A stretch of 64,000 nucleotides of DNA from Rhodospirillales bacterium (lineage in GTDB: Bacteria; Pseudomonadota; Alphaproteobacteria; TMED109). The position numbers and the translations under genes were made by a program. Of this stretch, positions 5,496-7,940 are shown in pieces. How positions within the stretch are numbered: the stretch's first letter is position 1; every line of letters begins with the position of its first letter. Under the pieces are notes generated by a model. That model made no database searches. It saw nothing but the letters and a program-made list of their open reading frames with translations, and had not been told where the DNA came from. The stretch is from the NCBI GenBank assembly GCA_009839325.1, contig VXPW01000052.1, positions 2,756-66,755 on the forward strand, in the 5' to 3' direction.

Positions 5496-7940
5496 ATGGC
5501 TGAAAGCGTTGTCAAGCCGGGTATGCCAACCGGGGCGACTCCGGCCCCGGGAGGCGCGGCCGAGCCGTCGTTGTGGAATGCGCTTCCGCATTTTCTGCCG
5601 TTGGCGATCTTTCCGCTGATATTCAATGCCGCCGTCTTCGGTGGCTGGTGGATTGGCGCCTGTTTCGTCTTTTTCATGCTGGCTGGTCCGCTGGACATTG
5701 CTCTGGGCGTGGACGAACGGAACATGGATCCGGCGAGGACGTCTGAGCGGCGGTTGCTCTGGCACAATCTGCCGGTCTGGTTGTGGGCGTTTCTCTGGCC
5801 CGTGACCCTCGTGTTCGGTCTCTGGCAAATCCTCCTTGCCGACCACCTGGCCACGTGGGAAGCGGTGTCGATGGCGATCATCCTGGCCGTGGAAGCGCAG
5901 GCAGTCTTCATCGTCGGCCACGAGTTGGTCCATCGGCGCACCGTGTGGGAGCGACGTCTTGGAGAGTTCCTGCTCGCCTCGGCCTCCTATCCGCACTACG
6001 CGACCGAGCACATCTACATCCATCACGCCCTCGTGGGCACGCCGCTCGACCTCGGCTCGGCCCCGAAGGGTCAGAGCCTCTGGCACTACTTTCCGCGCGA
6101 GCTGGCCAGCAATATCTTCGGCGCGTGGCGAGTGGCCCGCGAGCGGCTGGCGCGACGCGGACTGCCGGTCTGGCATTACACGAACCCGTTCTGGCGATAC
6201 GGTGGCGAAACGGTTGCCTGGTACGCGCTGATCTACTGGATGGGCGGTCCCTGGGCCGTCCTGATCTTCGCCATCCTCTGCCTCGGCGTCGTTCTGTCGA
6301 TGAAGATCAGCAACTACATCCAGCACTACGGACTGCGTCGCATCCGGCTTTCGACCGGTCGGTTCGAGCGTGTACGGCCTCGCCATTCCTGGAGCGCCAA
6401 TTGGCGGTTCAGCAACTGGATGTTCTACAACATGCAGCGGCATCCGGATCACCATGCCGTGGCAAGCCGCCATTACTCGCTGCTCCAGCATCACGGCGGG
6501 GACGAATCGCCGCAGCTGCCTGGCAGTTACGCCAAGATGTTCAATCTGGCGGTGCGTCCGCGGCGTTGGTTCGAGACCATGGACCCTCTGGTCGATCGCT
6601 GGCGGGCGCATTTCTATCCGGAAATTGACGACTGGACCGCCTACGACAGCCCAGTTTCCGCCGCCCGTCCGGAAGCGTTTGACGCGATCGTCGAGATCTT
6701 CGGCGCGGCGCCTCGGCTCGCGCGGCGGATCGAACGCCACCCCGAGTTGCTCGACACGCTCCAGGACAGGGAGTTCACCGATCTCGATCTTCCCACGGGC
6801 TTCGGACCGGACCCGGAAAGCGAAGCTATCGCCCGACGTGGCCTGACCCGGATCTACTGGACGCGCGAGTTCGGGGTACCGGAGATGCGCGCGCAAATCA
6901 CCGAGGCGCCGTTCCAGGATGCCGACGACGCCGCGGAAGTGGTTCGAAACTGGGCAAACGACAAGGCATTTCAAATCGGCGTTCACACGCTGCGGGGGAA
7001 TCTGTCTCCGATCGAAGCCGCGACAGCCCTCTCGCACGTCGCGGACGCTGCTGTGACCGCCGTGCTGGCGGCCGTCCAGGATGAATTTGCCGAGCAGCAC
7101 GGTCCGGGCGATGGGGGCGGTTTCGCAGCCGTCGTCTTGGGCGACCTAGCGAGCAGGGAGGCCGCGCCTGACGCGGAACTCCATCTCTTGTTCGTGCATG
7201 AGGGCGGACAGCAGGATCACTACGACTCGCTGTGTCGCCGGATTCTGGAGGCGACAGACGGCTTGCAGGTCGACAGTCTGCTGTTTGCGCCGATTCCGGG
7301 CGCCCGGAAAAGGCGCGACGTGTGGTCACTGGCCGAGTTCGTGGGACATTTCCGAGAGGGCGCCACGACCGGCGAACTCCGCGACCTGATCCGGGCGCGA
7401 TGCATCTACGAGTCTCCCGGTTCCGGCTTGGAGCGGCGGTTCGCTGAAGCACGGAGCGAGGCGCTGTCAGGCTCCCGGGTACGCGAACAGCTGATCACCG
7501 AACTCGCCGAGCCAGCCACGGACGCCGGCGAAGCCAGCCTGTCAGCGATCGACAGTGGCCGTGGCGGCCTCGTCGATGTGGAGCGCGTTGCCCGATGGCT
7601 GCAGTTGCTCCACTTCCGAGACATGCCCGCCGACACCGCCACCACCGCAGCTTCGGTATTCGAAACTGCTGCCACGCACGGATGGATCGCCGACGGAGCC
7701 GCAAAGCGGTTGGCCGAGGCTGCCAACCTTTGGCGAAATCTGCAGGGGGCCGTCCGCCTTGTTGCCGGTGCCAATGCCGAGATCGATGCACTCGGCACCA
7801 GGGCCAAGGCCGTGCTAGCGCAATGCTGTGGGGCCGACGACTTCGAGGCCCTGGCGACCACAGTGACGGACATGGCTGCCGGCACTGCCGCAGCGATCGG
7901 CGCGTTGCACGGCGGCGATGCTTCCGAGTCGCAGACTTGA
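5496..7940 (+). CDS. AlkB-type membrane hydroxylase fused to a degenerate GlnE adenylyltransferase-like domain
   Basis: An 814-residue two-part protein. Residues about 25-375 are a membrane di-iron hydroxylase of the alkane 1-monooxygenase/XylM family. All histidine boxes are present: HELVH (142-146), EHIYIHH (171-177), the AlkB signature NYIQHYG (273-279), HPDHH (316-320) and LQHH (330-333), with hydrophobic membrane segments around them. Residues about 390-805 resemble the C-terminal half of GlnE (glutamine synthetase adenylyltransferase): FQIGVHTLRG (492-501), the pattern GDLASRE (549-555) for GKLGGRE, RARCIY, and GGLVDVE (690-696) for GGIxDIE. The catalytic SDxD of GlnE is replaced by AELH (560-563), and the DxRLRPSG motif is gone, so the domain is probably not an active transferase. 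Start fixed by AGGAGG. Terminal alkane, fatty-acid or xylene hydroxylation is the likely chemistry; the role of the extra domain is unknown. Confidence 0.88.
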   Translation: MAESVVKPGMPTGATPAPGGAAEPSLWNALPHFLPLAIFPLIFNAAVFGGWWIGACFVFFMLAGPLDIALGVDERNMDPARTSERRLLWHNLPVWLWAFLWPVTLVFGLWQILLADHLATWEAVSMAIILAVEAQAVFIVGHELVHRRTVWERRLGEFLLASASYPHYATEHIYIHHALVGTPLDLGSAPKGQSLWHYFPRELASNIFGAWRVARERLARRGLPVWHYTNPFWRYGGETVAWYALIYWMGGPWAVLIFAILCLGVVLSMKISNYIQHYGLRRIRLSTGRFERVRPRHSWSANWRFSNWMFYNMQRHPDHHAVASRHYSLLQHHGGDESPQLPGSYAKMFNLAVRPRRWFETMDPLVDRWRAHFYPEIDDWTAYDSPVSAARPEAFDAIVEIFGAAPRLARRIERHPELLDTLQDREFTDLDLPTGFGPDPESEAIARRGLTRIYWTREFGVPEMRAQITEAPFQDADDAAEVVRNWANDKAFQIGVHTLRGNLSPIEAATALSHVADAAVTAVLAAVQDEFAEQHGPGDGGGFAAVVLGDLASREAAPDAELHLLFVHEGGQQDHYDSLCRRILEATDGLQVDSLLFAPIPGARKRRDVWSLAEFVGHFREGATTGELRDLIRARCIYESPGSGLERRFAEARSEALSGSRVREQLITELAEPATDAGEASLSAIDSGRGGLVDVERVARWLQLLHFRDMPADTATTAASVFETAATHGWIADGAAKRLAEAANLWRNLQGAVRLVAGANAEIDALGTRAKAVLAQCCGADDFEALATTVTDMAAGTAAAIGALHGGDASESQT

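Follow-up and report, generated by a model that had tools for sequence, protein, structure and literature searches.

In the window, the 64,000-nucleotide stretch of DNA analysed here, one gene encodes an AlkB-like di-iron membrane oxygenase fused to a C-terminal GlnE half of the alphaproteobacterial kind, and this gene shows genetic linkage to the srp proteusin RiPP cluster that sponge symbionts carry. GlnE is the bifunctional glutamine synthetase adenylyltransferase. The first-pass annotation had read the frame as 814 codons joining a complete AlkB-like hydroxylase to about 415 residues of the C-terminal part of GlnE, and this reading holds: the frame is open on the forward strand with no internal stop, the GlnE part occupies residues 386-806, and Pfam, NCBIfam, PDB sequence and fold comparison agree on both halves. 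Pfam places FA_desaturase at residues 120-349 (E = 9.9e-24), GlnE PF03710 at 473-641 with a significant E = 6.1e-9, and GlnD_UR_UTase at 685-782 (E = 1.6e-5). The NCBIfam model of alphaproteobacterial GlnE, PRK14108, matches with E = 8.1e-32, at a score far under the model's cut-off because the fusion has only half of GlnE. Sequence matching to the PDB finds AlkB 8f6t (1e-50) and 8sbb (2e-40) and the E. coli GlnE C-terminal domain 3k7d (3e-8). The same genome has a separate complete GlnE, on contig C99, and its C-terminal half alone aligns well with the fusion, residues 392-781 with 547-931 of GlnE (E = 3e-18). The AF2 model of the fusion has pLDDT 82.7 and pTM 0.73, and Foldseek matches it to AlkB 8f6t (2.5e-16) and to the C-domain (3k7d, 4e-11) and N-domain (1v4a, 5e-11) of E. 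coli GlnE.

The junction is clean and tight, with the end of stand-alone AlkB, ..YYPEIEDWTPY, corresponding to ..FYPEIDDWTAY at residues 374-384 of the fusion, and with the AARPE shortly after it being the start of the GlnE half, the same as in the full-length GlnE paralogue at L125. A homologue scan in which each GTDB species was represented by one genome found homologous loci outside the window's genome, 46 in all, and alignment A1 holds 42 full-length fusion sequences, the window protein included, with homologues 47-94% identical to it. Because these full-length sequences come from independent MAGs, an assembly chimaera is ruled out. The coordinates of the features are collected in the table.

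Table. Coordinates of the fusion gene, its parts and related genes. Plain positions refer to the window; other positions carry their locus or contig.
Feature	Position	Strand	Basis or remark
AlkB-GlnE fusion gene, whole, 814 aa + stop	5496..7940	+	ATG start, no internal stop; homologues
AlkB-like membrane di-iron oxygenase domain, residues 24-384	5565..6647	+	Pfam FA_desaturase; PDB 8f6t/8sbb sequence and fold; nine His
His box HELVH (H142, H146)	5919..5933	+	invariant His
His box EHIYIHH (H172, H176, H177)	6006..6026	+	invariant His
Box NYIQHYG (H277); Q276 at the position of FtAlkB Glu271 (Fe2 carboxylate ligand)	6312..6332	+	Q in 39/42 fusions
His box QRHPDHH (H316, H319, H320)	6435..6455	+	invariant His
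GlnE C-terminal half, residues 386-806	6651..7913	+	Pfam, NCBIfam, PDB, own-GlnE alignment, fold, tree
GlnE half, helical first part (386-535)	6651..7100	+	dN/dS, identity; invariant K490, Q493, H497, R500
Degenerate nucleotidyltransferase domain (540-640)	7113..7415	+	Asp counts, dN/dS
E561-L562-H563 at the catalytic D-x-D position	7176..7184	+	both Asp in only 2/42
SrpE-type precursor, NHLP, core LCCCW	G000:C67:76801-77019	-	precursor search
YcaO cyclodehydratase	G000:C67 about 73.1-75.5 kb		own genome
372-aa srp-cluster protein	L057:11526-12650; homologues in A4		predicted ABBA aromatic prenyltransferase fold
Stand-alone AlkB-like protein	L022:1464-2603, L029:1672-2820, L030:1752-2891, L034:978-2117		two loci labelled Porisulfidus

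The iron ligands of the Fontimonas thermophila AlkB (FtAlkB) are nine His and Glu271, the latter on Fe2 (PMC10113152). All nine His are invariant in the 42 fusions, which argues for catalysis. The Glu position is Gln276 in 39 of the 42, the Glu being retained only in one Acidobacteria clade (L037, L040 and L041), and Glu is found there in 16/16 of the stand-alone AlkB-like proteins examined. This replacement may alter or abolish AlkB-type hydroxylation. Five of the six rubredoxin-facing Arg of FtAlkB are largely kept, and rubredoxin as a genome-encoded donor was searched for and is absent from most hosts: in these incomplete MAGs, none is present in the window's own genome (0/1), and among the other host genomes it is found in 11/35 and missing in 24/35. 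A CxxC metal-binding motif that might substitute for rubredoxin is likewise absent from the C-terminal half in the six sequences checked. Most hosts probably use an electron donor other than rubredoxin, and it is odd that the docking Arg are kept, since they fit badly with a donor that is not rubredoxin-like. A second, distant stand-alone AlkB-like protein of about 380 aa is encoded a few kb upstream of the fusion at four Gammaproteobacteria loci.

The fusion carries one of the two nucleotidyltransferase domains of GlnE. Both of its metal-binding Asp are present only at L016 and L039, so that the D-x-D is lost in 40/42, with the first Asp lost in 39 and the second kept in 23, and all three metal positions vary across the 42 fusions. 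The window protein has E-L-H in this place. With the D-x-D lost, the GlnE half is most likely non-catalytic. In close pairs, dN/dS is 0.01-0.20 for the AlkB domain. The helical start of the GlnE half, at 0.04-0.22, is as constrained as AlkB in most pairs; the ratio rises to 0.12-0.41 in the nucleotidyltransferase part and 0.24-0.43 in the C-terminal helices. As the ratio is below 1 throughout, the GlnE half is still under purifying selection, with its catalytic part loose. At L035, L046, L047 and L038 the frame is broken or shortened, always inside the GlnE half (at about residues 490-660), either by sequencing error or by loss.

The fusion occurs in every one of the seven genomes of the window's genus, in one of them with a broken frame, which bears out an expectation of orthologues in related genomes, and in none of the 21 genomes from the family's other genera. 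Among 385 genomes sampled across the class and 398 across the phylum, full-length fusions are confined to a few families. Among the part of the loci that was checked, the fusion homologues with a checkable source are from sponge symbionts; a sponge origin is given in the record titles of some (Spongia_Bin9, lac_sponge), and the labels RHO, COS and IRC are presumably sponge sample codes. The jk18x bins derive from Ircinia sponges (PMC9531527). In trees of the sampled AlkB and GlnE sequences, with the root arbitrary, the fusions form one clade in both (SH-aLRT 100 and 99), which is consistent with a single origin, without proving it. Fusions of Gammaproteobacteria are scattered at several places among the alphaproteobacterial ones in the trees, and this suggests horizontal transfer of the fusion, with MAG binning errors possible for single cases. 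The closest relative of the fusion's GlnE half is an additional full-length paralogue of GlnE; the genomes concerned, G323, G399 and G322, hold the fusion, the canonical GlnE and this paralogue. A 1363-aa frame of G323, considered as a GlnE half with another partner, was rejected as such, being the full-length paralogue. The loci of this nearest paralogue are L094, L125 and L126, in fusion-bearing alphaproteobacteria that also have the canonical GlnE, and the one at L125 is followed by a gene that reads like a putative ammonium transporter.

The link to srp comes from the neighbours. At 36 of the 46 fusion loci an srp-type YcaO lies within 6 kb on either side, and for 9 of the remaining 10 it lies elsewhere in the genome, so 45/46 have one beside the fusion or in the same genome. 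It usually adjoins the fusion on the same strand; at 26 loci its frame is clear and no more than 700 bp away. Of 372 alphaproteobacterial genomes, ten have an srp-type YcaO scoring over 800 bits (the next YcaO scores 450 bits), and the genomes with the fusion are these same ten, with the qualification that the YcaO profile was made from fusion neighbours, which favours joint detection, and that the ten genomes come from four families and are therefore not ten independent events. Distances of the AlkB domain and of YcaO are correlated (Mantel r 0.59, 0/2000 permutations), as expected if the genes move together. The conserved neighbours are the YcaO cyclodehydratase with a TOMM leader-binding domain (TIGR03882, seen on a homologue), a 372-aa protein, a tryptophan halogenase, NHLM transporters, a protein with an NHLP leader and a cyclase-like domain, an MMPL exporter, methyltransferases, and NHLP precursors, most of which end in LCCCW. 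The srp proteusin RiPP cluster is reported to be widespread in sponge microbiomes and encodes a precursor SrpE with the core LCCCW and the leader motif NLTEEQL, the YcaO SrpC and the tryptophan brominase SrpI (PMC10858898, PMC10286304). The precursor in the window's own genome agrees with SrpE, having the leader motif NITEEQL and the same core, and this genome further shares with the published cluster the YcaO, the tryptophan halogenase and the NHLM transporters.

Contig C67 of that genome has, in order, a C39-peptidase transporter, a second transporter, the NHLP-cyclase protein, YcaO, the 372-aa protein, SrpE and the start of the halogenase. C67 ends in the 55 bases with which the window's contig C72 begins (L057, L051), and the tryptophan halogenase frame, with its 5' part on C67, runs on across the overlap, so the two contigs are adjacent in the genome. 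By coordinates, the distance from fusion to YcaO in the window's genus is about 11.5 kb, and between them are genes for protocatechuate dioxygenase subunits, an FAD monooxygenase, an alpha/beta hydrolase and an RraA-like protein, a set of the protocatechuate and 4-hydroxybenzoate catabolism type. With a gap of this size and content, the fusion may be regulated apart from YcaO.

The 372-aa neighbour has no relatives in Pfam, NCBIfam or PDB sequence searches. Its predicted structure is of good quality (pLDDT 91, pTM 0.90), and the 50 Foldseek matches listed are all ABBA or DMATS-type, the best with E = 2.5e-6 and a TM of about 0.5. It thus has the predicted fold of the ABBA aromatic and indole prenyltransferases (DMATS, IptA, PriB, CymD) without detectable sequence similarity to them. 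Resting on a structural model, this suggests that the srp product is prenylated, and a prenylated peptide would be a natural substrate for the AlkB domain.

Because the fusion travels with the srp genes, it probably helps to finish the bromine-containing peptide, and not to sense nitrogen. Our proposal, in which we place about as much belief as doubt, is that the srp pathway uses it as a tailoring or accessory enzyme, with the AlkB domain oxidising a hydrophobic part of the product and the GlnE half docking. The AlkB domain would oxygenate the srp product at a site that is hydrophobic and exposed to the membrane, preferably the prenyl group from the predicted prenyltransferase or else an aliphatic side chain, and the GlnE half, without catalysis of its own, would serve as a docking site or scaffold for a partner from the cluster such as the leader peptide, the YcaO or the prenyltransferase. 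Partner binding had been one of several roles offered in the first-pass annotation, and it is the putative role that we favour. Against the proposal weigh the 11.5 kb gap in the window's genus, the Gln at the Glu271 position, the kept rubredoxin-docking Arg, the modelled basis of the ABBA fold, the derivation of the YcaO profile from fusion neighbours and the minority of homologues whose GlnE half is broken or short. The fuller version, in which the peptide acted on at its prenyl group or side chain is thiazoline-bearing, brominated and prenylated and the dead GlnE half is a new RiPP recognition module, is more speculative, and we consider it doubtful.

As an alternative, the oxygenase could be a passenger that merely travels with the srp genes and supplies carbon by oxidation of sponge lipids, fatty acids or free alkanes, as its AlkB homology, the close match (E = 1e-105) to a stand-alone AlkB from a different alphaproteobacterial family and the adjoining aromatic catabolism genes in the window's genus would allow, but the tight adjacency and co-occurrence with YcaO over several phyla, the lack of rubredoxin in most hosts and the replaced Fe2 ligand make this rather unlikely. 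The predicted joining of an integral membrane domain to a soluble helical scaffold, and the NHLM and MMPL exporters nearby, would fit an oxygenase that acts on the producer's own membrane lipid or serves as an anchor for srp enzymes, tethering a cytosolic GlnE-derived scaffold to the membrane; we judge this unlikely, given that the complete set of His ligands speaks for catalysis.

A hydroxylase gated by nitrogen status, in which glutamine, PII or nucleotide bound by the GlnE half would switch the AlkB domain, was a suggestion of the first-pass annotation, and what speaks for it is ancestry: the half is clearly derived from GlnE, and the C-terminal halves of GlnE respond to glutamine and PII, as a matter of general knowledge. 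Against it are the lost D-x-D, the fast evolution of the C-terminal parts, a constraint that outside the first helical part is weaker than on the AlkB half, the separate intact GlnE of the same cell, and a neighbourhood that is a RiPP cluster and not nitrogen genes, and we find it very unlikely. That the GlnE half is a working nucleotidyltransferase with altered metal ligands, modifying the srp peptide or enzymes, would draw on the two sequences that keep both Asp, on the more frequent second Asp and on the continuing purifying selection; the nearly general loss of the first Asp and the variability at every metal position leave it hardly credible.

Relative to known proteins, the fusion shares with the natural AlkB-AlkG (rubredoxin) fusion protein of F. 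thermophila (8F6T, 8SBB) the fold, the nine His, the C-terminal position of the fused partner and the five of six Arg, and differs from it in that the partner is half of GlnE and not an electron carrier, in the Gln for Glu271, in the lack of rubredoxin in most host genomes and in its RiPP cluster neighbourhood. The AlkB fusions in a review of the family are only with rubredoxin or with ferredoxin/ferredoxin-reductase (PMC8918992). With GlnE (E. coli 3K7D and 1V4A; PRK14108) the fusion has in common the sequence and fold of the C-terminal half, whereas it has a single nucleotidyltransferase domain where GlnE has two, with a degenerate D-x-D, joined to a membrane oxygenase. The claim that no protein of this architecture had been described stands in the literature searched, where none was found, and the open srp literature searched has no mention of the AlkB-GlnE gene or of the prenyltransferase-fold gene; the founding srp paper (Nguyen et al. 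2021, 10.1021/jacs.1c03474) lies outside both searches, and the novelty, limited to the architecture and the functional reading, is subject to it. In the published work consulted, srp chemistry consists of thiazolines and tryptophan bromination (PMC10858898, PMC10286304). The fusion and the prenyltransferase-fold gene predict two added modifications, prenylation and oxygenation, and so give masses for chemists to seek. If the proposal is true, a membrane oxygenase family of alkane metabolism has moved into peptide tailoring, and half of a nitrogen-regulation enzyme has been reused after loss of catalysis.

Some loci retain the fusion with precursor variants. Two loci of the Glu-retaining Acidobacteria clade have, instead of LCCCW, precursors ending in RCCCCA (L040:1353-1622, L041:148-417), and one locus elsewhere has LCCC without the Trp (L017:11985-12254). 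The NHLP-cyclase neighbour has its NHLP leader fused to a domain of roughly 350 residues with weak squalene-cyclase similarity (L057:7422-8810; L020:4567-5859; L019:10722-12020), and could be either a RiPP substrate of protein size or an enzyme with its own leader.
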